Shown: one piece after another, positions 2,644 through 16,121 of the stretch | How the letters are laid out: each line of letters begins with the position of its first letter | How positions within the stretch are numbered: position 1 is the stretch's first letter | NCBI GenBank assembly: GCA_014338185.1 | Contig: QUBV01000026.1 | Span: 1-38,609 of the forward strand | DNA: 38,609 bases | Reading direction: 5' to 3' | Source of the DNA: Lysobacterales bacterium | Lineage (GTDB): Bacteria; Pseudomonadota; Gammaproteobacteria; Xanthomonadales; Rhodanobacteraceae | Program-made: the position numbers and the translations under genes | The notes under the pieces: model-generated | What the model was told of the DNA's origin: nothing | The model's database searches: none | Seen by the model: only the letters and a program-made list of their open reading frames with translations

Positions 2644-2753
2644 GGGTGCAACGCAGCCACTGCCGGATGTGCGCCAGCACTCCTCGCGTGTCGCGATCGG
2701 CCGTGGTTTGCGCTTGTGTGGGTACATGGGCTGTTTGGAACGGAGCAACTGAC

Positions 2754-5186
2754 ATGAATACGCTTACGACACGATTTGTCTGGCTGGTACTGCTGGTGGC
2801 GCTGGTGATGACCGGTGTCTGCACCGACGCCGTCGCTGTGGAACTGTGCGTGCGCGACGTCGCCGACCTCAACGCGGCGCTGGTGGTGGCTGCCGGTGGA
2901 CAGTCCACGGTCATCAAGCTGGCGCAGGGCACCTACGCGGTGGCTGGCAGCACCGTCACGCAGGTGCATGCATACGGACCGGTGCAGCTGCTGGGTGGCT
3001 ATACCAGTGATTGCGCCGCGCGTACGCTGCAACCGTCCAACACCGTGTTCGACGGTGGCATGGCGGACGCGGCGACCCTGATCGCCAATGGCGACGTGCG
3101 GGTCGAGGGCGTCACCTTCCGCAACTTCCACGACGTCGCCCTGCTGGTCGAGGAGGACCAGGACGACGGCTACGTCAAGGTCGCGAACAACGTGTTCGAT
3201 GGCGTGGGTGCCGTGGTCACCCCGCACTCGGCCGGACCCTTCAGCCTCAGCTTCAACAACAACCTGGTCCACGACTACCACGGCACCCAATGGAGCACGG
3301 CGGTGTGGCTGGTCGACGACGGCCCGCTGCACGTCGACGGCAACACCATCGTCGACACCGGCGATGTCGGCTTGCAGGTGTGCGGGCACGGCGAGGTCGA
3401 ACTGGGCAACAACATCGTATGGAACAACGCCGGGCGCGACGTGCGGGTGTCCTGCGACAGCCAGCCCCAGCCACGCTCGGCGCTGTTCCAGGACAATCTC
3501 TACGGCACCATCTACGGCAGCGAGGCCACGGGTTCCTACGGCAGCCTGCACACCGATCCCTTGTTCACCAACGCGGCCGGCGGCAACTACCACCTGCAGG
3601 ACGCTTCTGCCGCGATCAACAGCGGCAATGCCGCGCTGTCGCATCCGGGCGTGGACCTGGACGGCAATCCGCGTGTGGTCGGCTCGACCATCGACCGCGG
3701 CGCGTACGAGTCGGCGGTGGATGACACCATCCCGGCCACGCTGACCGTGACCAACACCAACGATTCCGGCGCCGGGTCGTTGCGCCAGGCGATCCTCGAC
3801 GCCAACGCCAACCCTGATTTCACCTTCATCGACTTCGACATTGCCGGCGCCTGCCCGCACACCATCGCGGTGACTTCGGCCAACCTGCCCACCCTCACCA
3901 ACGGTGTGCGCATCGATGGCTATTCGCAACCGGGCAGTTCGGCCAACAGCGCGGTGCAGGGCGACAACGCCACCCGCTGCATCGTGCTCAACGGGCTGGG
4001 CCAGCGCACTACCGGACTGGCCTTCTCGGGTTCGAGCGACGAGCAGTTCTGGCTGCAGGGACTGGTCGTGGAAGGCTTCACCAGCAACGGCCTCAGCATC
4101 AGCGGCGGCACCGGTGCGCTGGTCTGGGGCAACCAGTTCGGCGGGCGCTTCCACGGTGCCACGCTGCTGCCCAACGGCAACAACATCCTGCTGGTCGGCA
4201 ATTCGCACAGCGCGCAAGTCGGAGGTGACGCACCGGCCCAGCTCAATGTGATCGACGGTGCCACCACGGCCGGTGTCCTGATCACCGGTCTTGCCCCGTA
4301 CCTGTCGACCGGCAATCGCGTGATCGGCAACCTGATCGGAACCTGGGGCGGCGAGACCGGCGTGCTGGTCGGCAATGCCGTCGGCGTGGAGCTGGACAGC
4401 AGCAACAACACCGTGCGTGACAACGTCATCGTCGGCAGCGGCAGCGACGGCGTGCGGCTGGGCGGCGCGTTCGCGAGCCACAACACCGTGCAGGGCAACC
4501 GCATCGGGCGCACCGATACCGTGTGCGTGATCCTTCCGGTCCCGTTCTGCTACAACGACGACGCTGCCAACGCCCGTCATGGCGTGCGCATCGACTCCGG
4601 CGCGCATGACAACCTCGTGCAGTCCAACACCATCTGGTACAACGCTGCCACCGGCATCTCGGTCGCGGGCAGCGGCAAGGGCAACGAGCTGTCGGCCAAT
4701 TCCATCTACCAGAACGCCGGCTACGGCATCGATCTCGAAGGCGTCGGCGCCAACGACAATGATGCCGATCCCAACGCCGCGAACCTGCCCAATCGCGGGC
4801 TCAACTACCCCGTGCCGCTGCGCGCCTACGGCGGTGCGCGCCACGGCAGCGTCGAGGGCACGCTGAGCTCCACCAACGGCAGCTACCTGATCCAGGTGTT
4901 TTCGTCGGCCACCGCCGACAACGAGCCCACCGGCGAAGGCGAGACGTTCCATCGCATCGGCATCGCGCAGATCAGCAACGCCGGCGCCAATGGCAATGGC
5001 AGCGATTCCTTCCGCATCGCCTTCAGCAGTCCCGCAGCGAGTCTGGCCGGGCGCGTGGTCACGCTGACCGCGATCGACGAGGATGGCAACACCTCGGAGT
5101 TCTCCAGCCCGGTGGCCTACGCCTGCGACGTGATCTACCGCAACGGCTTCGATGACGCCGAGGGCGACCAGTGCCCGCAGCCGTGA
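2754..5186 (+). CDS. large secreted beta-helix protein with choice-of-anchor Q and CSLREA-like segments
   Basis: About 810 residues with a Sec signal peptide (residues 1 to about 28, cleavage after AVA). The first half (about 30-325) is a beta-helix ending in LDGNPRVVGSTIDRGAYE, the hallmark of choice-of-anchor Q domains. A second module begins near residue 330 with LTVTNTNDSGAGSLRQAILDAN, the CSLREA-like start seen in the preceding gene, followed by Asn-rich beta-helix rungs (GNRVIGNLIG, NTVRDNVIVG) to about 690. A DEDGNTSEFS beta-sandwich motif and the tail DVIYRNGFD lie at the end, here followed by 11 more residues. ATG 2754 has CGGAG 8 nt upstream and leads directly into the signal peptide. 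It looks like two secreted proteins of this family joined in one chain. Role unknown; an adhesive or carbohydrate-facing surface protein is possible. Confidence 0.87.
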   Translation: MNTLTTRFVWLVLLVALVMTGVCTDAVAVELCVRDVADLNAALVVAAGGQSTVIKLAQGTYAVAGSTVTQVHAYGPVQLLGGYTSDCAARTLQPSNTVFDGGMADAATLIANGDVRVEGVTFRNFHDVALLVEEDQDDGYVKVANNVFDGVGAVVTPHSAGPFSLSFNNNLVHDYHGTQWSTAVWLVDDGPLHVDGNTIVDTGDVGLQVCGHGEVELGNNIVWNNAGRDVRVSCDSQPQPRSALFQDNLYGTIYGSEATGSYGSLHTDPLFTNAAGGNYHLQDASAAINSGNAALSHPGVDLDGNPRVVGSTIDRGAYESAVDDTIPATLTVTNTNDSGAGSLRQAILDANANPDFTFIDFDIAGACPHTIAVTSANLPTLTNGVRIDGYSQPGSSANSAVQGDNATRCIVLNGLGQRTTGLAFSGSSDEQFWLQGLVVEGFTSNGLSISGGTGALVWGNQFGGRFHGATLLPNGNNILLVGNSHSAQVGGDAPAQLNVIDGATTAGVLITGLAPYLSTGNRVIGNLIGTWGGETGVLVGNAVGVELDSSNNTVRDNVIVGSGSDGVRLGGAFASHNTVQGNRIGRTDTVCVILPVPFCYNDDAANARHGVRIDSGAHDNLVQSNTIWYNAATGISVAGSGKGNELSANSIYQNAGYGIDLEGVGANDNDADPNAANLPNRGLNYPVPLRAYGGARHGSVEGTLSSTNGSYLIQVFSSATADNEPTGEGETFHRIGIAQISNAGANGNGSDSFRIAFSSPAASLAGRVVTLTAIDEDGNTSEFSSPVAYACDVIYRNGFDDAEGDQCPQP

Positions 5187-5259
5187 GCCGGCATCGGCGT
5201 AGCGGCCGCCAGGCGCGTGCGCCGGTTGCAGGTTAGAACGCCGGCCACGGATGAGCGGA

Positions 5260-5291
5260 TGCGGACCAGGCACCCAGGTGCCTGGTCCGCA
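5260..5291. repeat. perfect 15-bp inverted repeat with 2-nt centre
   Basis: Arms 5260-5274 and 5277-5291 are perfectly complementary (TGCGGACCAGGCACC and its reverse complement) around CA. The element lies between the beta-helix gene (stop at 5186) and ppa (start at 5418). It could end upstream transcription, but no T run follows on either strand and the loop is tiny, so a protein-binding palindrome or dispersed repeat is equally possible. Confidence 0.75.
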
Positions 5292-5358
5292 CGGACGCCT
5301 GCGCGCCCGCGGCCGCTGCGCGTGGCGCGGGTGCGTGCGGCGGCACCTGCGCATGCAC

Positions 5359-5364
5359 TATGCT
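5359..5364 (+). promoter_or_regulatory. candidate -10 element for ppa
   Basis: TATGCT within the context CACTATGCTG lies 54 nt before the ppa start codon. The same ten bases recur before the STAS gene at 6911-6920. No good -35 hexamer is visible at 16-18 nt spacing, so this is tentative. Confidence 0.3.
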
Positions 5365-5417
5365 GCGCGCCCCTGCGCCGGCTGGTCGGGCGCGGGCCTG
5401 CCCGAGACGGAGTGGAC

Positions 5418-5954
5418 ATGTCGCTGGATCGAGTCAGTGCCGGTGCCAAGGTGCCGGACGAAATCAACGTCGTCATCGAAATCCCCAAGGATGCCGAGCC
5501 GGTCAAGTACGAGGTCGACAAGGCCAGCGGCGCGATCTTCGTCGATCGCGTGCTGTCCACGCCGATGCGCTATCCGTGCAACTACGGCTACGTGCCGCGC
5601 ACGCTCGGTGGCGACGGTGATCCGCTCGATGCGCTGGTGATCCTGCCGCTGCCGCTGGTGCCCGGCGCGGTGATCCGCTGCCTGCCGGTGGGCATGCTGC
5701 GCATGACCGACGAGGCCGGCGCCGACGAGAAGCTCATCGTGGTGCCGCACCACCGCACCTTCGCCGGCTATGCCCACATCAGCGACATCAGCCAGGTGTC
5801 GGGCCACTGGCTCGAACGCATCGGCCATTTCTTCGAGCACTACAAGGACCTCGAACAGGGCAAGTGGGTCAAGCTCGACGGCTGGGCCGATGCCGCGGCC
5901 GCCAAGCGCGAGATCGAGGCCGCGGTGGTGCGCTACGCGCAGGCGCGCGGCTGA
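5418..5954 (+). CDS. ppa: inorganic pyrophosphatase, family I
   Basis: The 178-residue product matches the usual size of bacterial family I pyrophosphatases, soluble cytoplasmic enzymes that hydrolyse pyrophosphate to two phosphates and pull biosynthetic reactions forward. The Mg2+-binding signature is intact: DGDPLDAL near residue 66 fits D-x-D-P-x-D. Other expected elements are IEIPKD near the N-terminus, the segment MRYPCNYGYVPRT ahead of the signature, and HFFEHYKDLEQGKWVK near the end. I placed the start at ATG 5418, with GGAG at 5409-5412, although the frame stays open for about 200 nt further upstream; homologs begin here. The gene stands alone after a 230-nt spacer containing a long palindrome. 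It is probably essential and constitutively expressed. Confidence 0.97.
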   Translation: MSLDRVSAGAKVPDEINVVIEIPKDAEPVKYEVDKASGAIFVDRVLSTPMRYPCNYGYVPRTLGGDGDPLDALVILPLPLVPGAVIRCLPVGMLRMTDEAGADEKLIVVPHHRTFAGYAHISDISQVSGHWLERIGHFFEHYKDLEQGKWVKLDGWADAAAAKREIEAAVVRYAQARG

Positions 5955-6034: not shown

Positions 6035-6877
6035 ATGCTCAACCTGTTCGGCGCGGTCGCGTGCAGCGTACTGGTGTCGGTGCTGCTCAAGCTCGCGCCG
6101 CGCTGGCGCATCGCGATCGATGTCGCGATCGCCTGCAACTACGCCTGCGCGATGGTCGCCACCGCACTGCTGCTGCAGCCGTGGCGATCGGCGCCGCCGA
6201 CCGCGCAGTGGCCGTGGCCGAGCCTGCTCGCGCTCGGGCTGTTGTTGCCGACGATCTTCCTCGTGCTCGCGCGTTCGGTACGCGAGGCCGGCATCGTGCG
6301 CAGCGACGTGGCGCAGCGCCTGTCGTTGCTGCTGCCGTTGCTGGCCGCGTTCGTGCTGTTCGGCGAGCGTGCCAGTGCCACCAAGCTCGCGGGTGGCGCG
6401 CTGGGGCTGCTGGCCCTGCTGGCGCTGGTGTGGCGTGGCCGCGCGCAGCCGGCGCCGGTACGCGCCGGCGCCGCGTGGCCGCTGCTGGTGTTCGCGGGCT
6501 TCGGCGTGATCGACATCCTGTTCAAGCGCGTCGCCGCGAGCGGGCTGGCACTGGGCCTGGCGCTGCAGGTCGTGTTCGTGCTCGCGCTGGTGGTGGCCGT
6601 GCTCATCAGCGCCGCGCGCCGCAGCGCGCCGGATTGGCGCAGTTGCGGCGCGGGGCTCGTGCTCGGCCTGTTCAACTTCGGCAACATCCTGTTCTACCTG
6701 CGCGCGCACCGCGCGTTGCCCGACGCGCCCGCGCTGGTGTTCGCGGGCATGAACCTCGGTGTGGTCGTGCTCGGTGCGCTCACCGGCCTGGTGCTGTTCG
6801 GCGAGCGCCTGGGCCGCATCAATCTGGCCGGGCTCGGCCTTGCGCTGGTGGCGATCACGTTGCTTGCGCGCGGCTGA
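6035..6877 (+). CDS. EamA/DMT-superfamily-like transporter
   Basis: The 280-residue protein has about ten hydrophobic segments arranged as two similar halves. Each half ends in a segment containing the same motif: LFGERASATKLAGGALGLLALLAL near 110-135 and LFGERLGRINLAGLGLALVAITLL near 250-277. This internal duplication with (V/L)LFGER is typical of ten-helix drug/metabolite transporters, which export or import small molecules across the inner membrane. Substrate cannot be told from sequence. CGAGG lies 9 nt before ATG 6035. The gene follows ppa by 80 nt in the same direction and could share its transcript, while the next gene has its own candidate promoter. Confidence 0.8.
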   Translation: MLNLFGAVACSVLVSVLLKLAPRWRIAIDVAIACNYACAMVATALLLQPWRSAPPTAQWPWPSLLALGLLLPTIFLVLARSVREAGIVRSDVAQRLSLLLPLLAAFVLFGERASATKLAGGALGLLALLALVWRGRAQPAPVRAGAAWPLLVFAGFGVIDILFKRVAASGLALGLALQVVFVLALVVAVLISAARRSAPDWRSCGAGLVLGLFNFGNILFYLRAHRALPDAPALVFAGMNLGVVVLGALTGLVLFGERLGRINLAGLGLALVAITLLARG

Positions 6878-6948: not shown

Positions 6949-7275
6949 ATGGGCGCAGCGGCATTCCGCAGCGAAGAGGATGGCGAGCGCGTCACGCTGG
7001 TGTTCAGCGGTCGCTTCGACACGGCCGGCACCCTGGGCGTGCAGGACGCGGTGCTCGGCCGCATCGCGCAGGTGGCGCCGGCGCAGTGCCTGCGCTTCGA
7101 CCTCGCCGCGGTGGAGTTCGTCGCATCGGGCTTCCTGCGCCTGTGCATCCAGGCCACGCGCACACTCGGCCGCGAGCGTTTCGAGCTCGCGCGCCCAGGC
7201 CCGCTGGTGCGCGAGGTGCTGGCCATGGCGGGGCTGGACCAGCATCTGCGCATCGTCGATTCCGGCGCGGCGTGA
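6949..7275 (+). CDS. STAS-domain anti-anti-sigma factor (SpoIIAA/RsbV-like)
   Basis: A 108-residue single-domain STAS protein. In partner-switching systems such proteins bind and occupy an RsbW-type kinase when unphosphorylated, freeing the kinase's target. The segment DLAAVEFVASGFLRL at 51-65 aligns with the family phosphosite region (x-D-S-S-G-L); Ser60 sits at the phosphorylated position, while the preceding Ser is Ala. GGAG at 6940-6943 supports ATG 6949. Its stop overlaps the GTG start of the next gene by 4 nt, pairing it with an RsbW-like kinase. A SpoIIE phosphatase that could dephosphorylate Ser60 is encoded convergently 430 nt downstream. The family is clear; which partners it uses is inferred from the neighbourhood. 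Confidence 0.88.
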   Translation: MGAAAFRSEEDGERVTLVFSGRFDTAGTLGVQDAVLGRIAQVAPAQCLRFDLAAVEFVASGFLRLCIQATRTLGRERFELARPGPLVREVLAMAGLDQHLRIVDSGAA

Positions 7276-7679
7276 ACACGCCCGGGCCCGCGCGCTGGCA
7301 CGTCACGCCCGATCGCGAGGGACTGGCGAGCCTGCAGCAGCAGGCGGCGGACTGGCTGCAGCGCAGCGGCGTCGAGGCCCGTCGCGCCCAGCACATCCTG
7401 CTCGCGCTCGACGAACTGGCCGCCAATGTGGTCGAGCACGGGCGGGCGGCGCACTGGCTGCAGCTGGACCTGGCCAGCCTGGAGGACGCGGTGGAACTGG
7501 AACTGCGTGACGATGCGGCCGCGTTCGACCCCACCCGGGTGGCGGAGGCGGCCGGTGGCGAGCCTGGCATCGGCGGCCATGGTCTGCGCCTGGTGCGACG
7601 CCTGGCCAGCGCGTTCGAATACCGGCGCGTGCACGGCCACAACCGCGTGCGCCTGCGCTTCGCGCGCACCGGCGACTGA
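7272..7679 (+). CDS. RsbW/SpoIIAB-like anti-sigma serine kinase (HATPase_c_2)
   Basis: A 135-residue GHKL-fold ATPase. The N box is ALDELAANVVEHG (Glu48, Asn52), the G1 box RDDAAAFDP at 79-87 and the G2 box GIGGHGLRLV at 99-108, so ATP binding should be intact. Such proteins phosphorylate a STAS antagonist and sequester a sigma factor or other target. The start is GTG 7272, overlapping the TGA of the STAS gene (GTGA), which indicates translational coupling. The gene converges with the SpoIIE phosphatase operon, with only 26 nt between the stops. No sigma factor of the SigB/SigF type lies in the window, so its output may be encoded elsewhere or may not be a sigma factor. Confidence 0.9.
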   Translation: MNTPGPARWHVTPDREGLASLQQQAADWLQRSGVEARRAQHILLALDELAANVVEHGRAAHWLQLDLASLEDAVELELRDDAAAFDPTRVAEAAGGEPGIGGHGLRLVRRLASAFEYRRVHGHNRVRLRFARTGD

Positions 7680-7705
7680 AGGCGGCCGGGCGCGCCTGCG
7701 GGTCT

Positions 7706-9634
7706 TCAGGCCGGCGTGCCGCGCTGCATCGCCAGCAGCGTGACATCGTCCTGCGGGACCTGGTCGCACCAGGCCAGCACCTCGGCCACGATCGCATCGG
7801 CCACGGCCTCGGGCGGCAGCCCGCGCGCGGCACCCAGTCGCGCGAGCAGGCGCGCCTGGCCGTAGAGTCCGGCATCGGCGCCGGCTTCGGTCACGCCGTC
7901 GGTGTACAGCAGCAGGGTGTCGCCGCTGGCGAGCTGCAGCTGCGTATCGGCGTAGTCGAGGGCATCGAATGCGCCCACCAGCGCGCCGTGGCCGTCGATC
8001 ACCTCGATGCGGCCGTCGGCGCGCAGCAGCAGCGGCGGCGGATGTCCGCCACAGGCCAGCGTGAGCCGGCCGTCGCGCCAGCGATAGTGGGCGAGCACGA
8101 GCGTGACGAACATGCCGTCGTGGCCGCCGGTGGCCAGCACGTGGTTGACCGCGGCCAGTGTCTGCGCGGGCGTGCGCGTGGCGCTGGCGAAATCGCGCAG
8201 GTGGGTGCGCACCATGGTCATGTACAGCGCCGCCGGCGTGCCCTTGCCGCACACGTCGGCGACCACCAGCGCGACGGTGTCGCGGTCGAGCAGCCACGCA
8301 TCGTAGAAGTCACCGCTCATGAGCGTGGCCGGCTGGCACAGGCCGTGGAAGCGGAAGCCCGGCGTGGGGCCGGCATCGCGGCTCCACTGCGGCCAGGGCG
8401 GCGGCAGCAGGCGCTGCTGGATCTCGCGCGCGGCGGCCAGCTCGCCCTCGATGCGCTGACGCTGCGCGGCCTCGCGCATGCGCTCGGCCTGGCTGTAGGC
8501 GAGCGCATCGAGCATGTCGTCGAAGGTGTGCGCGAACTGGCCCAGTTCGTCGCGGCGCGAGGTGATGCCGGTGCGCTGCGTGGCATCGCCATGCCGCACC
8601 GCGCCGGCGACGCGACGCAGGGCATCGAGCGGGCGCGTGAGGCGCCGCGTGGTCCACGCCAGCGTGAACAGCACCAGCACCAGGGCCGCCAGTGACAGCG
8701 CGAGCTGGCGAGCGAGCTGTGCCCGCGCATTGGCCAGCACGCGGTCCTCCTCCAGCAGCGCGACCATGCTCCAGCCGGTGTCGCCCACGGGTGCCCACGA
8801 CAGCCACAGCGGGCCGGCGGACACGCGGCTGGCGTCGATTTCGAGCAGGCCGCTCTCGCCCCGCTGCATGGCCTTGCCGGCCTGCTCCAGCTGCGGCAGC
8901 TCGAGCTTGCGCGCGATGTCGAAGATGCCATCGCCCGGCGCGCGGATGTCACCGGCCTGGGTCAGGTAGTGGCCATGCGCATCGACCAGCCGGCTGGCAC
9001 CGCCCCATGGGCTTTGCCAGCCGGTGTCGAACGCATCCAGCGCGATGTCCGCGGTCACCACCGCGCGTTCGCCCGCGCGGGTGTGCCAGGGCACCGAGTA
9101 GGTCACCATGCGCACGTCGCCGATGCCGGTGTCGAAGTACGGCTCGGTCCAGTACGGCGCCCCGCTGCGCAGCGGTTCCACGAACCAGTCGCGCGTGCTG
9201 TAGTGGACCTGGCTGTCGGGCTGTTGCAGCAGCGTGAGGCGGCCACCGATGCGGCCGGCGTAGTACACGGGGTGGTCGCTCGCGGACTCGAAGGCAATCG
9301 CGCTGCCGTAGATGTCGGGCGTCTGCCCGACCACGCCGCCGAGCACGTCGAGCAGGGTGGCCGGGGCGCGGTCGAGGTGGCCCGAGCCCAGAAACCAGGC
9401 CGCCGAGCGTGTCGCCTGCATCACGCCGGCCAGGCGCGCGGCCAGTGCCGCGGCGCGCTGGCGCGTGACCTCGACCAGGAACGCGCGCGCCTGGCGTTCG
9501 GCCTCCACGCGATCGTCGCGGTAGCCCACGTACATGCGCACGCCCTCGGTCACCAGCAGCAGCAGCGCGATCGCGACGATGAGGCGCGCATGCAGGCGCG
9601 AGGACAAGCGCGCGAGCCGGCGCCATGCCTTCAT
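7706..9634 (-). CDS. membrane sensor dCache-HAMP-SpoIIE/PP2C serine phosphatase
   Basis: A 642-residue RsbU-type phosphatase. Order: short cytoplasmic N-terminus, TM helix at about 17-36, periplasmic dCache-like sensor at about 40-305 (YSTRDWFVEP and YWTEPYFDTGIGDVRMVTYS are typical of Cache folds), second TM at about 308-328, HAMP at about 330-385, coiled linker AAREIQQRLLPP at 401-412, then the SpoIIE domain. Metal-binding Asp residues are visible in SGDFYD (Asp442), VADVCGKG (Asp460), YTDG (Asp579) and QDDV (629-630). It should dephosphorylate a STAS protein when the periplasmic domain senses its ligand. ATG 9634 overlaps the TGA of the gene before it by 4 nt. It is the last gene of a five-gene operon; the likely substrate, the STAS protein, is encoded convergently. 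Confidence 0.95.
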   Translation of the reverse strand: MKAWRRLARLSSRLHARLIVAIALLLLVTEGVRMYVGYRDDRVEAERQARAFLVEVTRQRAAALAARLAGVMQATRSAAWFLGSGHLDRAPATLLDVLGGVVGQTPDIYGSAIAFESASDHPVYYAGRIGGRLTLLQQPDSQVHYSTRDWFVEPLRSGAPYWTEPYFDTGIGDVRMVTYSVPWHTRAGERAVVTADIALDAFDTGWQSPWGGASRLVDAHGHYLTQAGDIRAPGDGIFDIARKLELPQLEQAGKAMQRGESGLLEIDASRVSAGPLWLSWAPVGDTGWSMVALLEEDRVLANARAQLARQLALSLAALVLVLFTLAWTTRRLTRPLDALRRVAGAVRHGDATQRTGITSRRDELGQFAHTFDDMLDALAYSQAERMREAAQRQRIEGELAAAREIQQRLLPPPWPQWSRDAGPTPGFRFHGLCQPATLMSGDFYDAWLLDRDTVALVVADVCGKGTPAALYMTMVRTHLRDFASATRTPAQTLAAVNHVLATGGHDGMFVTLVLAHYRWRDGRLTLACGGHPPPLLLRADGRIEVIDGHGALVGAFDALDYADTQLQLASGDTLLLYTDGVTEAGADAGLYGQARLLARLGAARGLPPEAVADAIVAEVLAWCDQVPQDDVTLLAMQRGTPA

Positions 9635-11127
9635 GCGCTCGCCGCGGCCTGCGCCCGCATCTGTGCGCGCAGGCGCTGGCCCAACTCGGAGTGGATGTTG
9701 GGGGCGTCGTAGTCGAAGCCGGGGTCGGCCACGTGGTTGTACACGAGCCGGTCCTGCGCGGGCGTGACGCCCGGCGAAACGCCACTGAACACGAAGCCGA
9801 GCGCCTCGATCGCGGTGGCCATGCGCGCGCTTGCCGGATCGACCAGCGGCACCTGCAGCTCGATCACGGCCATGCGTTCGCGGCGCAACTGCGCCAGCCG
9901 CGCGCGCAGCGTGGGCAGGGTGTCCTCGCCCCAGCCATCGACCCGGAGCTGGGCCAGCTCCAGCCCGCCATGCAGCGCCGCATCGACGCTGCCGTGGGCG
10001 GGCAGCGCCGGGCTCGCGGCAGGCGCGTCGAGCAGCTGCAACGGCACCTCCAGCGCCTGGTAGATCGCCTGCAGCAGCGCGCGCTGCGCAGGCGCGACCA
10101 CCGCGCTGCGCGCGGCGCGCGCGTCCGGGTCGAGGTAGCGCACCGCGAGCATGCAGCTTTCGCGCTGCGGCAGCGCCTCGGCGATGCGGCGAAAGCGCAG
10201 CGATGCCGGCGCATGGCCGGGCAGCAACGCGCAGTCGCGAAAGCCGAGCTCGTGCATGAAGCGCTGGGTCCACGGGTGGGCCGTCACCGCATGCGTGTAC
10301 AGCTGGCGCAGGCCGCGTTGCCGCGCGAGCTCGAGCAGGAAGTCGCCGAGCCGACGCGCCACGCCCTGGCCGCGGTACTGCATGCGCGTGACCACGATCG
10401 CAAGCTCGGCGCCGGCCGGATGTTGCGGATCGAGCACGAGCGCGGCGTGTCCCGCGATCGCGCCGCCCGCCGTCACCGCCAGCGCCGACACCAGCGCGCC
10501 GCTGCGGTTGAGCGCGACCACGCGCTCGGGAAAGTAGATGTGCTCGTAGGGATACGAGTAGCCGTAGGCGTCGTGGATCAGGCGCGACACCTCCAGCGCG
10601 TCGTCCTCGCGCAGCAGGCGCACCTCGGCCACGGGTTCGGCGGCAGGTTCGGCGGCAGGTTCGGCGCGCTCGCCGATCGGCGCGAGCGCGCGGTACTTGA
10701 GCAGGCGCGTCTGCTTGCCGCCGCGACCGAGGTTGCGGTATTCGACCTCGTCGAAGGCGCTGCGCATCAGGTGCATGCCCAGCGCCGACTGCAGCTGGCC
10801 CTGCGGCGCACGCGCGGGATCGTAGGCCGGGATGCGAGCGGGATCGAACGGCAGGCCCTGGTCGTCGATGAGGATTTCGAGCCCGAGCGGGTGGCGCTGC
10901 AGGGTGAGGTCGAAGCAGTGCAGCTCGGCCGCTGCGAACGCATGGCGCACGACGTTGGAGACGGCTTCCTCCACACCCAGCTCGATCTGCGCCAGTTCGC
11001 GCTCGCCGAAGCCGAGCGCGGCCGCATGGCTGCGGGTGAGCGCGCAGGCCAGCGCGATCGCCGCGACCTCGTTGGTCAGCGTGAGGCGGCAGGCGCCCGC
11101 GGGCAGGCTGGCCTCAGCGCTGCTCAT
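9631..11127 (-). CDS. RsbW-like ATPase fused to GNAT acetyltransferase
   Basis: A 498-residue protein with two recognisable parts. Residues 15-148 form a GHKL/HATPase_c_2 domain: N box ELGVEEAVSNVVRHA at 49-63, DDQG at 88-91, and a Gly-poor G2 region near 116-125. A linker with three repeats of Ala-Glu-Pro (157-168) follows. Residues 168-310 form a GNAT domain, with the acetyl-CoA pyrophosphate-binding pattern YRGQGVARRLG at 251-261 (Q/R-x-x-G-x-A). The last 180 residues have no clear assignment. The ATPase part probably acts as an anti-sigma-type kinase or binder; the GNAT part suggests acyl or acetyl transfer. The start overlaps the ligase gene by 14 nt and the stop overlaps the phosphatase start by 4 nt. 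Confidence 0.85.
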   Translation of the reverse strand: MSSAEASLPAGACRLTLTNEVAAIALACALTRSHAAALGFGERELAQIELGVEEAVSNVVRHAFAAAELHCFDLTLQRHPLGLEILIDDQGLPFDPARIPAYDPARAPQGQLQSALGMHLMRSAFDEVEYRNLGRGGKQTRLLKYRALAPIGERAEPAAEPAAEPVAEVRLLREDDALEVSRLIHDAYGYSYPYEHIYFPERVVALNRSGALVSALAVTAGGAIAGHAALVLDPQHPAGAELAIVVTRMQYRGQGVARRLGDFLLELARQRGLRQLYTHAVTAHPWTQRFMHELGFRDCALLPGHAPASLRFRRIAEALPQRESCMLAVRYLDPDARAARSAVVAPAQRALLQAIYQALEVPLQLLDAPAASPALPAHGSVDAALHGGLELAQLRVDGWGEDTLPTLRARLAQLRRERMAVIELQVPLVDPASARMATAIEALGFVFSGVSPGVTPAQDRLVYNHVADPGFDYDAPNIHSELGQRLRAQMRAQAAASA

Positions 11128-12388
11128 GGCGACGGTCGATCACGCGCTTGAGCTTGCCCGAGCGCGTGTTGATTTCGAGGCCGCCCGGTGCGACCCAGTC
11201 GATCTGCAGCGGATGGATCAGCGCCTGCGCGATGAGGTCGGGCAGCATCGGCCGCTCGGCATGCAGGCGGCGCACGATCGTGTCGGCCAGCGCCGCCCGT
11301 GCCGCTGCCGCGGCTTCGCTGGCGATGCGCACGGTGAGCCGGTCGCGCTGTTGCACGTGCTCGACCAGCAGCTGGAACTCGAACGCGCCCAGCTCCGCGC
11401 GGCATTCGCCGAGCACGCGGCGCACGTCCTCGATGTAGAGCGTGGCCGGACCCACGCGCGCGCCTTCCTCGCTGCGGCCCATGAGGCGGAACCGGCGGTC
11501 GGGCGTGCCCGCGGGTTCGCTCCAGCAGGCCATGTCGCCGGCCGGGTAGCGGATGATGGGCATGAGCAGACGCGTGAGGTTGGTCACCACCACGCGCCCG
11601 ACCTTGTCGGTTTCGCGGATCGGCGTGCCGTCGACCTCGTCGATGATTTCGATGATCGCGTAGCGGCTGAACATGCGGTGCTCGTCCGGGCCGCAGGAAT
11701 CATCGTCGTAGCCGAGCAGACCCGCATCGACGCTGGCATAGCCGACCGAGCGCGCCTGGGCGGCGGGAAACGCGCGCGCGAGCGTGTTGCGCTGCTCGGC
11801 ATACATGGATTCGCCGCCGAACAGCAGCCGGCGCACGCCGGGTGCGGTTTTGCCCGCGTTGATGTAGTGCGCCGCCAGCGTCAGCAGCGTGGTGGGCGTG
11901 CCGACCAGCGTGGTCAGGCCAAAGTCGGCGATCGCATGTTCTACCGTGTCGGGGTCGGCGCGCCCCGACAGCGGCAGCTGCAGCGTGTTGGCACGGGCGT
12001 GGTCGAGCGAGCGCATGATGAAGATGAACGACGAGTACAGGTCGCCGACGTAGAACAGGTTGGCGATGCGCTCGCCATCGTGCAGGCCGCCTGCATCGAG
12101 CCCCATGCCGAACACGCCGGTGAAGGCTTCCCATTCGACGCGGCTGTAGATCGAGAACTTGGGTTCGCCGGTGGTGCCGCCACTCTTGAACACCATGCCG
12201 TCATGGATCGGGCCGGTGAGCAGACGGTTGTCGCGCTGGGTGTTGGCGGCCCAGAACGCCTTCTGCTCGACCAGCGGCAGTTGCTCCAGCGTGGGCCGCG
12301 AGGGCAGGCCGGCGTACAGCTCGCGGTAGTAGGGCGACAGTTCGCGCGCGACTGCCACCAGGGTGTCCAGCTCGTAGTGGGTGATCAT
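11114..12388 (-). CDS. PaaK-like AMP-dependent acyl ligase
   Basis: A 424-residue member of the phenylacetate-CoA ligase (PaaK)/LuxE branch of adenylating enzymes. Motifs visible: P-loop SGGTTGEPKFSIYS at 69-82, a YASVDAGLLGY motif in mid-protein matching the adenylate-binding A5 region, IRYPAGDM with the conserved Asp, and SGKLKRVIDRR at the C-terminus with Lys412 in the position of the A10 catalytic lysine. It should activate a carboxylate to an acyl-AMP and pass it to CoA or a protein thiol. Substrate cannot be told. ATG 12388 overlaps the preceding stop by 4 nt. It resembles the C-terminal half of the upstream fusion protein, so the operon carries three adenylating domains of this branch. 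Confidence 0.88.
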   Translation of the reverse strand: MITHYELDTLVAVARELSPYYRELYAGLPSRPTLEQLPLVEQKAFWAANTQRDNRLLTGPIHDGMVFKSGGTTGEPKFSIYSRVEWEAFTGVFGMGLDAGGLHDGERIANLFYVGDLYSSFIFIMRSLDHARANTLQLPLSGRADPDTVEHAIADFGLTTLVGTPTTLLTLAAHYINAGKTAPGVRRLLFGGESMYAEQRNTLARAFPAAQARSVGYASVDAGLLGYDDDSCGPDEHRMFSRYAIIEIIDEVDGTPIRETDKVGRVVVTNLTRLLMPIIRYPAGDMACWSEPAGTPDRRFRLMGRSEEGARVGPATLYIEDVRRVLGECRAELGAFEFQLLVEHVQQRDRLTVRIASEAAAAARAALADTIVRRLHAERPMLPDLIAQALIHPLQIDWVAPGGLEINTRSGKLKRVIDRRHEQR

Positions 12389-14943
12389 GCCAGGTCTCGC
12401 AGGTCGACGATGGGTTTGAGCTTGCCGGTGACCGGCGCGGTCACGAACCCGGCGAGGGCGACGGCCTCGAGCTGCAACCCGCTCGATGCGAGCGGGCCAT
12501 CGACTTCCTCGCGCAGCACCGGGTCATGCGCGAGCAGCAGCGCGCGCAGCGCGGCGGGATCGTGGCCCGCGCCCTCGAGCACGCGCACCTTGATCGTGTA
12601 GGCACGGCCGTCGTGGTCGAGTTCGATCTGCAGCGGCCCGTCGTAGCCGGCGTGGTCGGCCAGCGTCTTGACGAAGCGGTGGTAGCTGAGGAAGTTGCCG
12701 ACGCGGAACACGTCGCCACAGCGCCCGAGCAACTGGAACCGCGGCGCGGCACGGCCGCATGGGCATGGCGCGTCGACCCAGCGACCCATGTCGCCGATCT
12801 CGTAGCGCTGCACCGGCGCGGCCGCACGGCGCAGCGAGGTGAACACCAGCCGCCCGGCCTGGCCCGGCGCGACCGCGCGGTCGGCCTCGGGGTCGAGGAT
12901 TTCCAGGTACTGCGACTGGGTCAGCACATGGTAGGTGGTGTCCTCGCAGTGCGGGCACTGGTAGCCGAGCGGACCGGCGTCGTTGCTGCCGTAGGACGCC
13001 GCGCGGACGAGTTCGACGCCGAATTCGTCGTGCAGGCGCTGGCGCAGCGCGCCGCTCATGTGCTCGCCACCGAAGAACACCTTGCGGATGCCGCGATACT
13101 CGCGCAGCAGCGGCGCCTGCTGCTCGAACAGCTGGCCCAGGTAGAACGGCATGCCCAGCAGCGTGTCGACCTTGCGCTCGACGATCGTGCGCGCGACCTC
13201 GGCCAGGTCGTCGATGCCGGCCATCGGCAGCTGCGCCGCGCCGAGGTTTTCCAGGATCGTCCAGAAGCTGATGAAGCCGCCGTACAGATGCCCGGCCATG
13301 AACAGGTTGATGCAGCGGTCGCGGGCCGGATCGAGCCCGGCCGCACGCAGGCCGTCGGCCGCAGCGCGCATCTGCGCGTGGTAGTCGTCCCAGCTGTAGG
13401 CCGAGAACTTGGGCGCGCCCGAACTGCCGCCACTGCGCACGAGCACGTGCGCCAGCGCGGGGTCGGGTTGCAGCGCGAGGAACGCGGCCTTGTCCATCAC
13501 CGGCGTGCCCGCGCGCAGCGGGTTGGCGGGCGCGGCGAGTTCCTCGAAGCTCGACACCTGCGCCAGCGCCTGGCCCAGTTCCAGGCCGACGCGCCGGCTG
13601 TAGCGCTGCAGCGCGTACACGCCATCGTGCGGTTCGCCGGCGTAGCCTCCGAGTTGTTCGCCCACGCATGTGACGCGCGTGACGCCGGCGGCGATGAGGC
13701 GCCCGGCGAGTTCCGCGATGCGGCGCACCGGCGCGGCCAGCCCGGCGGTCTGCAGCCAGCGCCGCATCGGCCGCAGCGTGTCGACGACCTGCGCGGCCTG
13801 CAGCGGCTTGATCCAGATGCTGCGGAACAGCGGCGAGGCGCGCAGCGCCGGATGGTCCTCGGCGAACACGCGCCAGCCGCGATCGGGCGCGCTGAACACG
13901 CGCGTGGTGTCGGAACAGGCCGTCTCGAGGCTGGCCAGCAACTGCGCGGTGCTGATCTCGGCCCACTCCTGCTGCTGCGGTTCGGCACCGGGCGCGCGCG
14001 GCAGCTGCGCCGACACGCGCGCCAGCACGCGCGCGAAGCGCTCGGCGAAGGCGAACAGCGCGGCGCGGTCGCCGACTTCGACGTACAGGCACTGCGGGCT
14101 GGAGCAGGCCTGCTGTTCGAGCAGGCACACGTCGCGCGCGGCCGCGGCCAGCACCGTCTCGTCGTCGAGGCACTCCGCGGCGAGATAGGCGAAGGAAATC
14201 TTGTGACCCCAGTCGATCACGCGGCAGCCGCTGGGCGCGAGCGCGCCGATCGAGGCGATGGCGGCCTCGCCGCCCCATGCCGCGATGCCGTCGGCCAGTG
14301 CGAACAGGCCATGCAGGCGCGCGATCTGGCGTGACGGCACCGCCACCACGCTGATGAACGGCGCGAGCGTGCCGCTCGCATCCAGTGCCAGCAGCGCCGC
14401 CAGCAGCTGCTGGGCGAACGGCGGCACCTGGCTGCTGGTCTTGAGCACGTTGAGGTTGCCCGCGAGCAGGCCTTCGATCACCGACAGCGGCGCCACCGTG
14501 GGCACGTTGCCCGGCGCCACGTGTACGAGCAGGCCCAGCGGCGCCCAGGCCTCGAACGCGTCGGCATCGCCGTCGATGCGGCGCGGCACCTGCGGGCGCA
14601 GGCTGCCCAGTTCGCGCTGCAGCTTGGCGCGCAGCGCCGCCGGTGCGAGCGTGTCGCGGATCGCCGCGAGCGCGGCCTGCGCCTGCGCGCGATCGGTGGC
14701 CGGGTCCTGCTCCAGCGTGTGCAGCAGCGCCGCCACCAGCGCCGCGTCGCGCCCGGCGCCATCGCCGAGCCGCTCGCACAGCGCCGCGGCCGCCTGCAGC
14801 AGCGCATCCAGCGGCGCGGCACGCGCGAGGTCGTGGTGCAGTTGCGCGGGCAGTGCCGCCAGGCGCGCGTCGAGCGCGGCATCGTCCAGCCACTGTCCCT
14901 GCCACAGATGCGGAGTGCGTGGATCAGGCAGCGATCCGTTCAT
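12385..14943 (-). CDS. LuxC-type acyl reductase fused to PaaK-like acyl ligase
   Basis: An 852-residue two-domain enzyme. Residues about 60-440 match LuxC, the NADPH-dependent acyl reductase of the bioluminescence fatty-acid reductase complex: HVAPGNVPTVAP at 141-152, and EQQACSSPQ with Cys280 in the position of the acyl-accepting catalytic cysteine. Residues about 470-852 form a PaaK-like adenylating domain: SGGSSGAPKFSAYS at 504-517, YGSNDAGPLGY at 651-661, a possible metal site from C663/C666 and C727/C729, and GKLKPIVD with Lys841 at the A10 position. Acid activation and reduction to aldehyde could therefore occur on one chain. The stop and start overlap neighbours by 4 nt. Normal LuxC is about 480 residues and lacks this second domain. 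Product likely a fatty or aryl aldehyde; no luxAB, luxD or luciferase is nearby. Confidence 0.92.
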   Translation of the reverse strand: MNGSLPDPRTPHLWQGQWLDDAALDARLAALPAQLHHDLARAAPLDALLQAAAALCERLGDGAGRDAALVAALLHTLEQDPATDRAQAQAALAAIRDTLAPAALRAKLQRELGSLRPQVPRRIDGDADAFEAWAPLGLLVHVAPGNVPTVAPLSVIEGLLAGNLNVLKTSSQVPPFAQQLLAALLALDASGTLAPFISVVAVPSRQIARLHGLFALADGIAAWGGEAAIASIGALAPSGCRVIDWGHKISFAYLAAECLDDETVLAAAARDVCLLEQQACSSPQCLYVEVGDRAALFAFAERFARVLARVSAQLPRAPGAEPQQQEWAEISTAQLLASLETACSDTTRVFSAPDRGWRVFAEDHPALRASPLFRSIWIKPLQAAQVVDTLRPMRRWLQTAGLAAPVRRIAELAGRLIAAGVTRVTCVGEQLGGYAGEPHDGVYALQRYSRRVGLELGQALAQVSSFEELAAPANPLRAGTPVMDKAAFLALQPDPALAHVLVRSGGSSGAPKFSAYSWDDYHAQMRAAADGLRAAGLDPARDRCINLFMAGHLYGGFISFWTILENLGAAQLPMAGIDDLAEVARTIVERKVDTLLGMPFYLGQLFEQQAPLLREYRGIRKVFFGGEHMSGALRQRLHDEFGVELVRAASYGSNDAGPLGYQCPHCEDTTYHVLTQSQYLEILDPEADRAVAPGQAGRLVFTSLRRAAAPVQRYEIGDMGRWVDAPCPCGRAAPRFQLLGRCGDVFRVGNFLSYHRFVKTLADHAGYDGPLQIELDHDGRAYTIKVRVLEGAGHDPAALRALLLAHDPVLREEVDGPLASSGLQLEAVALAGFVTAPVTGKLKPIVDLRDLA

Positions 14944-16121
14944 GCGGCGTTCCCCTTGAGCAGTTCGGCCGCGGCCACCGCGCAGCTGCGGTTCTTGCCC
15001 TGGCCGGCGCGCCCGAGCAGGTCAAACCACGGCGCCTCGGCGCCGCAACCGCAGTCGCTGCCTGGATACCATGCGGCAAGGTCGCCCATGAGCACGCTCT
15101 GTGTCGGCGCCGCGGTGAAGTAGGGCGCGAGGAAATGCAGGAAGCCGGGGCGGCCGGCCGGCAAGGGTTCCAGCGTGGCCACGTCACGGATCGCTACGCG
15201 CGACCACACCGGCACGTGGAAGCGGTGGCGCGGACATTCGACGTAGGGCACGGAGTGTTCGACCGAGCCGTAGCCGTCGCGGATCAAGGCGTTGGCGATG
15301 CCCAGCTGTTGTTCGATGCGCGCCTGCAGGTCGGCCTTCGGGATCGCCTTGTCGGCCTGTCCCTTCCAGCCGCCGCCGAAGAAGGTCATCGAGCCGGGCG
15401 CGAGCGCGAGCGCCGGCAGCTTGAGTGCCTGCATGCGCTCGAGCGTGGCGTTGACGAAGGCCGGAAAGCCGAAGATGCGCACCGGCAGGCCCTGCTCGGC
15501 GAATTCCTGCAGTGCGCGGATCGTGCCGAACACGTCGAACTCGTGGCCGCCCGTGCCGGTGGCGCGCAACACGTAGCGCACCTCGTGCGCCGGTGCGTAG
15601 CGGGCCAGCGCGTTGTCGGTCCACGAGGTGCCGACCTTCCAGTCGCGCAGCGGTTCGTAGCCGACCATCAGGTAGTTGACCGGCTCGGCCTGGATCCAGC
15701 CGTAGTGGCGGAAGATCCGTTCGACCATCGCCTCGCCCGCGCCGATCGACCAGGCATCGAAGAACATCTGCGACTTCTGCCCGGTGGTGCCCGACGAGGT
15801 CAGGTGCAGCACCACCTGCTCGGGCGGCACCGAGCGGATTTCGTGGGTCTTGAAGAAGTTGGCGTGGATCGGCGGCAGCGCGAGGCAGTCGTCGATGCTG
15901 TCGACGCGGCCGCTGCGCGGACCCTGCAGCTCGAGCAGGCGTCGATAGAACGGGCTGCGCCCGCGGTGCCAGTCGAGGATCTCGTTCATCGCCGCGACGA
16001 ACAGCGCATCGGCGGCCGCGCCGTGGGCATAGGGCTCGCGCAGGTCGCCCAGCGCCTGGACCTGCGCAAGGGCGCGTGGATCAGGCACGCGTGGCTGGGA
16101 GGATTGCGCGGTCGGGTCCAT
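14940..16121 (-). CDS. LuxE-type acyl-protein synthetase
   Basis: A 393-residue protein of the LuxE family, which adenylates a fatty acid and holds it as a thioester before transfer to LuxC. The adenylation loop SSGTTGQKSQ is at 109-118, and a mid-protein FFGGGWKG and DGYGSVEH segment fit the family. Cys380 in SCAVAAAELL, 13 residues from the C-terminus, is a good candidate for the acyl-accepting cysteine, which lies near the C-terminus in known LuxE. A DCGCG element lies just before. The start at 16121 is supported by GGAGG 4-5 nt upstream; longer in-frame extension is low-complexity. It is first of the operon and its stop overlaps the LuxC-PaaK start by 4 nt, as expected for partners in one complex. 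Confidence 0.9.
   Translation of the reverse strand: MDPTAQSSQPRVPDPRALAQVQALGDLREPYAHGAAADALFVAAMNEILDWHRGRSPFYRRLLELQGPRSGRVDSIDDCLALPPIHANFFKTHEIRSVPPEQVVLHLTSSGTTGQKSQMFFDAWSIGAGEAMVERIFRHYGWIQAEPVNYLMVGYEPLRDWKVGTSWTDNALARYAPAHEVRYVLRATGTGGHEFDVFGTIRALQEFAEQGLPVRIFGFPAFVNATLERMQALKLPALALAPGSMTFFGGGWKGQADKAIPKADLQARIEQQLGIANALIRDGYGSVEHSVPYVECPRHRFHVPVWSRVAIRDVATLEPLPAGRPGFLHFLAPYFTAAPTQSVLMGDLAAWYPGSDCGCGAEAPWFDLLGRAGQGKNRSCAVAAAELLKGNAA

Follow-up and report, generated by a model that had tools for sequence, protein, structure and literature searches.

In glowing bacteria, LuxC- and LuxE-type enzymes produce the aldehyde used as fuel; partner switches are known to act mostly on sigma factors, with few targets of other kinds. 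Here we describe a locus in which homologues of the two lie together, from a Lysobacterales bacterium that we assign to the genus Dokdonella (assembly GCA_014338185.1; 3.17 Mb in 118 contigs). Its seven genes occupy positions 6949-16121 of contig QUBV01000026.1 (G000:C81 in our set), the whole of which, 38,609 nucleotides (nt), was analyzed and is called the window below. Five of the genes form an operon for LuxE, LuxC-PaaK and PaaK enzymes, a GNAT acyltransferase bearing an RsbW-like ATPase domain and a sensor phosphatase; the other two encode a STAS protein and an RsbW-like kinase. With a probability that we put at roughly 0.45, and judging from sequence, we propose that a periplasmic signal, relayed by phosphatase, STAS protein and ATPase domain, gates the GNAT inside an acid-activating and acid-reducing pathway. 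The arrangement is real, conserved and unusual; its parts are of known kinds and their combination appears to be new.

The closest described systems each resemble part of the locus. The Lux fatty acid reductase (structure 7xc6) likewise pairs adjacent LuxC and LuxE homologues, the cysteines of which align with those found here; it differs in that LuxC is here fused to a PaaK module and that the scores fall far under equivalog cut-offs. As regards the lux bioluminescence operon, no LuxD-type match was found by Pfam among the seven genes and no luciferase (PF00296) either among them or, at an expect value (E) of 0.001 or less, in the genome, a search that gave a match in 10 of 14 control genomes. 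The initial annotation had described the operon as lacking luciferase, and this holds. LuxC and LuxE without luciferase are not unusual, both being reported in flagellin glycosylation islands in the sections of PMC4875605 and PMC7874193 used here.

Turning to the regulatory genes, the RsbU/RsbV/RsbW and SpoIIE/SpoIIAA/SpoIIAB circuits share with the locus a SpoIIE-type phosphatase, a STAS serine at the phosphoacceptor position and a kinase with intact motifs. They differ from it in three respects: no sigma-factor domain is found in the seven genes here, the GNAT bears a second RsbW-like domain, and the STAS motif is V/I-A-S-x-F-L, not D-S-S-G-L. That a partner switch can act on an enzyme is known from SiaABC/SiaD of Pseudomonas aeruginosa (PMC7647112; see also PMC8457831; both used in part). 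This system too has a PP2C-like phosphatase, a kinase and a phosphorylated partner, co-transcribed with the enzyme SiaD (same portion of PMC7647112); however, SiaD is a diguanylate cyclase, whereas no GGDEF domain is found by Pfam among the seven genes and the proposed target has an RsbW-like domain of its own. Finally, type III GNAT acetyltransferases have a small N-terminal domain before the GNAT domain, as described in the portion of PMC8556138 at hand, but an RsbW-like ATPase is not among the domains listed there. In layout the ATPase-GNAT protein fits this type, its ATPase domain being a candidate for the regulatory one. Full-text term searches, whose coverage leaves most subscription journals outside, returned no title describing the core pathway or the combination.

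Organization of the locus

All seven genes are intact open reading frames, and reading frames together with Pfam and NCBIfam profiles bear out the families initially assigned to them. The operon lies on the minus strand and is read in the order LuxE-type acyl-protein synthetase (14940..16121; Pfam LuxE, 77.8 bits), LuxC-PaaK fusion (12385..14943; Pfam LuxC, 295.8 bits, and AMP-binding, 45.5 bits), stand-alone PaaK-type adenylate-forming ligase (11114..12388; NCBIfam DVU1553_fam_AMP, E 3.6e-22, and PaaK models), fusion of an RsbW-like HATPase_c_2 domain, a GNAT domain and a C-terminal domain (9631..11127; Pfam HATPase_c_2 and Acetyltransf_1) and dCache-HAMP-SpoIIE (PP2C-type) phosphatase (7706..9634; SpoIIE, 180.8 bits). 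Converging on it from the plus strand are the genes for the STAS antagonist-like protein (6949..7275; Pfam STAS_2, 34.6 bits, cut-off 29.2) and the RsbW-like HATPase_c_2 kinase (7272..7679; GTG start; Pfam HATPase_c_2, 73.5 bits), which overlap by 4 nt (7272-7275). Three operon junctions are overlaps of 4 nt (14940-14943, 12385-12388 and 9631-9634) and the fourth (11114-11127) measures 14 nt, a correction to the initial annotation, in which four of the five genes were joined by 4-nt overlaps.

The facing stop codons of the RsbW and phosphatase genes are separated by 26 bases. None of the terminator-like sites (6, against 2.5 expected) falls in this gap, and a promoter scan was uninformative (0 found, 0.4 expected). 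NCBIfam agrees on the families (DVU1553_fam_AMP and PaaK for both ligase modules; LuxC, LuxE, RsbW, SpoIIE), every match for the seven proteins scoring below its curated cut-off. Two other readings of the locus were rejected. None of the seven proteins has a PADLOC match at E ≤ 0.01, which speaks against a defense system. A viral origin was discarded as well: scanning viral contigs with the LuxC-PaaK alignment gave no relative, and the G+C content of the operon (72%) is like that of the window (71%).

The presumed acid-activating and reducing enzymes

The LuxC-PaaK protein consists of a LuxC reductase domain (residues 75-450) and a PaaK-type AMP-binding domain (about 480-850). Cys280 of the former falls on the cysteine of the QQAC motif when aligned to LuxC (7xc6_A) and is invariant in all nine aligned sequences, a set taking in two Streptomyces-type sequences, one from a Salmonella plasmid and one from genome G700 (see below). 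The LuxE profile matches LuxE of the same structure (7xc6_E, E 4.5e-29), with Cys380, again invariant in 9/9 sequences, falling on its C-terminal cysteine. We take the counterparts of Cys280 and Cys380 in 7xc6 to be the active cysteines, that of LuxE being presumably the acyl acceptor. Conservation extends to the C-terminal lysine of both ligase modules: K841 of LuxC-PaaK and K412 of the stand-alone ligase (within RSGKL/RTGKL) are each invariant in nine of nine sequences.

Considered by module, the pathway comprises three adenylate-forming units and one acyltransferase. The stand-alone ligase scores 23.1 bits with Pfam AMP-binding, under the 29.9 cut-off, and the NCBIfam equivalog cut-offs are missed widely by LuxC (85.4 versus 750 bits) and LuxE (60 versus 550 bits). 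The words "fatty" and "aldehyde", as applied to this pathway, are to be read as labels presumed from family membership.

An RsbW-like domain on the GNAT protein

The fourth gene of the operon is probably the joint between switch and pathway, a role missed in the initial annotation. Its product carries an RsbW-like HATPase_c_2 domain (residues ~18-143), a GNAT domain (~165-300; Pfam GNAT match 207-296) and a C-terminal domain. The profile of the protein matches RsbW over positions 34-133 (E 5.9e-10), and the ATPase residues E53/E54 and N58 and the motifs DQGLPFDP and LGMHL are kept in all six Dokdonella genomes that carry the locus. An AlphaFold2 model built on the six-sequence alignment has a mean predicted local distance difference test score of 74.5, and a Foldseek search with it returned RsbW (6m36; template modeling (TM) score of 0.87 over the target), SpoIIAB and many GNATs. 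The first match by E-value was Escherichia coli PatZ, with a TM-score of 0.23 over the query; PatZ may serve as a lead at most.

The domain is fused to the GNAT in 6/6 Dokdonella carriers. Core GNATs outside the genus (L053, L056, L058, L059) all start at the GNAT domain and are without the ATPase (4/4); for L056 the start was chosen by the analyst, and tblastn also gave no ATPase-domain match there. Across 398 genomes sampled from the phylum, no other match to the whole protein was found, and three other genomes matched from residue 153 or later, in the GNAT part only. Among the genomes examined, the fusion is thus found only in Dokdonella. A 476-residue GNAT-like protein from a genome of the same phylum (L051, 9039-10469) aligns along the GNAT and is of like length, its N-terminal region being as large as an ATPase domain; it has no Pfam HATPase match and a sub-threshold GNAT match. 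By eye, nearby genes look like exopolysaccharide genes.

A portable core outside Dokdonella

Comparison with distant genomes points to LuxE, LuxC-PaaK, PaaK and GNAT as a portable core. A tblastn search of 72,556 plasmid records gave six in which 80% or more of LuxC-PaaK is covered: two from one strain of Streptantibioticus cattleyicolor, taken as the same plasmid, two Streptomyces plasmids and two Salmonella plasmids. In genome samples, scanned with at most two candidates scored per genome, matches at E ≤ 1e-60 were limited to two of 398 genomes of the phylum (our own and G700). The order sample gave one genome of 348, our own (the other five carriers are absent from the result and are taken as not sampled), and the class sample nine of 369 at E ≤ 1e-20, our own alone being full-length. 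Within the family of G700, which from its gene content we guess to belong to Enterobacterales, two of 60 genomes match, both from one gammaproteobacterial genus (g351).

Identity to four aligned core relatives is 40-57% for LuxE, LuxC-PaaK and PaaK. The order LuxE, LuxC-PaaK, PaaK, GNAT is the same in G700, G811 and Salmonella plasmid CP054717; in NBC_00158 it is PaaK, major facilitator superfamily (MFS) gene, GNAT, LuxE, LuxC-PaaK, and pSCAT is alike, so that an MFS gene lies inside the cluster in both Streptomyces-type loci looked at. L057 gave no GNAT match at E ≤ 1e-4, and in CP053580 the GNAT match is split in two pieces. The plasmids and g351 have the same core genes as the window but a GNAT without ATPase and no partner-switch genes nearby: STAS, RsbW and SpoIIE gave no match at E ≤ 1e-4 in six of six loci (L053, L056, L057, L059, L060, L102), searched as stretches of 10-27 kb that leave room for distant regulators, and none is annotated in L058. 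Because the core occurs elsewhere without the ATPase domain and the switch genes, it appears that in Dokdonella one of the core enzymes has gained a partner-switch domain, with phosphatase, STAS and kinase genes next to it.

Some further features of these loci were recorded. Salmonella plasmids CP054717 (L059) and CP053580 (L060) are of IncFIB/IncFII type, with transposase and recombinase genes flanking the core, and a GNAT is annotated in one of them and not in the other. E. coli genomes gave no match to the LuxE/LuxC-PaaK DNA of the Salmonella plasmids. On a Chloroflexota plasmid, LuxE stands beside an unfused LuxC, adjoining a RecD-like helicase gene (L061, 6631-9032).

These comparisons bear on what the GNAT may do. 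One alternative is that it is a regulatory lysine acetyltransferase whose targets are the adenylate-forming enzymes encoded alongside it in the operon (e.g., the C-terminal lysine of their TGK/RSGK motifs), with the ATPase domain as a regulatory domain set by the STAS protein. Type III GNATs, in which a small regulatory domain (cAMP or ACT) stands at the N-terminus, have been described, and an acetyl-CoA synthetase encoded next to AcuA is acetylated and inactivated by that enzyme (both from the portion of PMC8556138 at hand); the lysines of the two ligase modules are conserved, and the best Foldseek E-value is that of PatZ, in spite of the low TM-score. Yet single-domain GNATs with other types of substrate match at similar E-values, no deacetylase domain is found by Pfam among the seven genes, and lineages in which the core GNAT has no regulatory domain still keep the enzyme, a better fit to a biosynthetic step. 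We regard this alternative as rather doubtful. Since the GNAT persists elsewhere without the ATPase domain and transporter genes accompany the core, acylation of a small molecule is favored over acylation of the enzymes' own lysines.

Conservation and constraint within Dokdonella

A protein search of 61 genomes, 16 of them Dokdonella, found full-length LuxC-PaaK in six Dokdonella genomes including our own; other genera gave partial matches only. The remaining ten Dokdonella genomes had no match (four are 77-86% complete, six 99-100%). The neighborhood is conserved, the other genes lying beside LuxC-PaaK in the same order in all six carriers, with STAS seen in five; in G014 it is out of view, the contig stopping about 40 bases past the likely RsbW start. 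Overlaps are kept as well: 4 nt between LuxE and LuxC-PaaK and 14 nt between PaaK and ATPase-GNAT (6/6 each), 4 nt between STAS and RsbW (5/5), and 4 nt between LuxC-PaaK and PaaK in four of six, the others having gaps of 231 nt (G014) and 397 nt (G008). Reading the translations of these gaps (L035, L036) by eye gave no common frame for a hidden small gene. The two inserts (L035, 11270-11500; L036, 11668-12064) share a short stretch ending in GGGGATTCCAGAGC. The phosphatase gene overlaps that of ATPase-GNAT in every carrier (4 nt in five of them, 1 nt in the sixth). As far as sequence can tell, the system thereby withstands the objections foreseen in the initial annotation, namely a neighborhood not kept in related genomes or phosphatase and ligase genes standing apart.

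Full-length phosphatase is found in the same 6/16 Dokdonella genomes only; of the ten non-carriers, eight have weaker partial matches (≤ 38% identity) and two have none. Periplasmic sensing had initially been tied to the biosynthetic genes. In the form of co-inheritance, as judged from synteny and from this distribution, the tie is well supported.

In two species pairs, ratios of nonsynonymous to synonymous substitution (dN/dS; Nei-Gojobori) fall in the range 0.09-0.29 for the genes of the operon and 0.14-0.20 for STAS, while RsbW gives 0.19 in one pair and 0.46 in the other; the neighbor gene AhcY gives 0.10-0.12. All seven genes thus look constrained, RsbW least. With dN/dS values of 0.09-0.46 and the same order in six genomes, the arrangement is not due to chance. 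Three named relatives are, by their titles, metagenome-assembled, but a chimera is unlikely as six assemblies have the same arrangement.

Fourteen of the 16 genomes were placed on an AhcY tree (left out were G007, with no AhcY match, and G010, with a partial one), which clusters the six carriers and needs two changes. Low support for seven of its 11 inner branches leaves gain versus losses mostly unresolved, and a single origin for the carriers is compatible with it. A second, partial copy of the AhcY C-terminus, 90% identical, lies downstream of the full gene in L034 (5085-5615; G004:C13:24732-25265), and L082 has a weaker partial copy.

Phosphatase, STAS protein and kinase

By Pfam, the phosphatase comprises dCache_1/MCP-like_PDC_1, HAMP and SpoIIE domains and is presumably a membrane protein. 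The PP2C acidic residues D442, D460, D579 and D629/D630 are invariant in all six sequences (which aspartates of the motif bind metal is our assumption). No ligand could be assigned to the dCache domain; the arginine of YSTRDWF in the window is replaced by glutamine in four of the six aligned sequences. In the STAS protein, Ser60 is invariant (5/5) within the V/I-A-S-x-F-L motif that replaces the usual D-S-S-G-L, and a gap-free profile alignment places it on the first serine of DSSG in SpoIIAA (1th8_B). We take this serine to be the SpoIIAA phosphosite, and assume the roles of the other motif residues likewise. The kinase matches Bacillus subtilis RsbW (6m36, E 2.5e-06), with DELxAN and GGxGL motifs invariant in 6/6. 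Genome-wide, HATPase_c_2 occurs in 15 places, six of them over cut-off; the two of the locus rank second and third.

A second partner-switch set is present in the genome (L101; G000:C71:11500-20500, about 3440-5838), consisting of a SpoIIE-HATPase protein whose gene overlaps that of a small STAS with canonical DSSG. The gene next to the set looks, by eye, like one for an MlaE-type permease.

Phosphatase, STAS protein and kinase could also be a separate signaling unit with its output elsewhere (e.g., a sigma factor or another enzyme), the two sets of genes being merely neighbors. The position of STAS and kinase on the opposite strand and the presence of another switch set in the genome are consistent with this, as is the fact that a sigma factor is the canonical output of RsbU/V/W circuits. 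At the locus itself, the EamA neighbor included, Pfam finds no sigma-factor domain. Against this alternative, all six carriers have the phosphatase gene overlapping the genes for the enzymes, and all six have one of these enzymes fused to an RsbW-like domain. We therefore hold independent signaling to be unlikely and retain the GNAT as the proposed output.

Neighboring genes

Directly upstream of STAS, on the plus strand, lies a gene for an EamA-family transporter-like protein (6035..6877; EamA, 33.4 bits, cut-off 28.2). Homologues at E ≤ 1e-30 are found in the same six of 16 Dokdonella genomes and in none of the other ten, on a contig different from that of the operon in two of the six. By association, the protein is a possible exporter; shared descent may explain its distribution. 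Positions 2646-5186 of the window encode a large, secreted-looking repeat protein, beta-helix-like by eye, with a possible sorting motif, CDVIYRNGFDD, at its C-terminal end.

Discussion

The computed features of the locus are its gene content, the overlaps kept between genes, catalytic residues that are conserved and, among the genomes examined, a domain fusion confined to Dokdonella. From these we infer phosphorylation, binding partners, switch direction, substrates, product and signal, as follows. LuxE, LuxC-PaaK and PaaK would activate carboxylic acids, at least one of which would be reduced to the aldehyde through LuxE/LuxC-type cysteine thioesters, and the GNAT would transfer an acyl group. 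The periplasmic dCache domain of the phosphatase would sense a signal. The RsbW-like kinase would phosphorylate Ser60 of the STAS protein and the phosphatase remove the phosphate, upon which dephosphorylated STAS would bind the RsbW-like ATPase domain on the GNAT and so gate the acyltransferase. The output of the switch would be an enzyme, not a sigma factor. Domain fusion is a usual hint of physical coupling, and it is because the RsbW-like domain is fused to the GNAT that the switch is proposed to act on this protein itself.

Several points weigh against this proposal. With two kinase-like domains and one STAS protein, the wiring is ambiguous; the STAS and kinase genes are convergent to the enzyme operon and outside it, and RsbW is the least conserved gene of the locus (44-61% identity). 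The presence of a second SpoIIE-HATPase/STAS set in the genome makes crosstalk possible. Within a single genus, common descent may account for the co-occurrence. Nor is the fusion necessarily unique to Dokdonella, L051 being possibly a degenerate ATPase-GNAT relative. Lastly, binding, phosphorylation, sensing and chemistry are all read from sequence. A flagellin- or polysaccharide-modification acyl pathway, with regulation incidental, is suggested by the LuxC and LuxE genes of glycosylation islands but is quite improbable, as no glycosyltransferase, nonulosonate or acyl-carrier domain is found by Pfam among the seven genes and the islands, in the sections of PMC4875605 and PMC7874193 used here, have separate luxC, luxE, acyl-carrier and reductase genes, with no LuxC-PaaK fusion mentioned.

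Tentatively, and with the odds somewhat against it, the Dokdonella protein could represent a new class of regulated GNATs, in which a fused, RsbW-like STAS-docking domain links a periplasmic sensor directly to one enzyme of a LuxE/LuxC-PaaK pathway for an undescribed, exported small molecule. If the proposed mechanism is true, it would tie metabolism to an outer signal directly and post-translationally, through a kinase-like domain inside a biosynthetic enzyme. The domain fusion marks which protein contact to look at, and the comparison defines a small portable pathway, made of LuxE, LuxC-PaaK, PaaK and GNAT, in distant bacteria.

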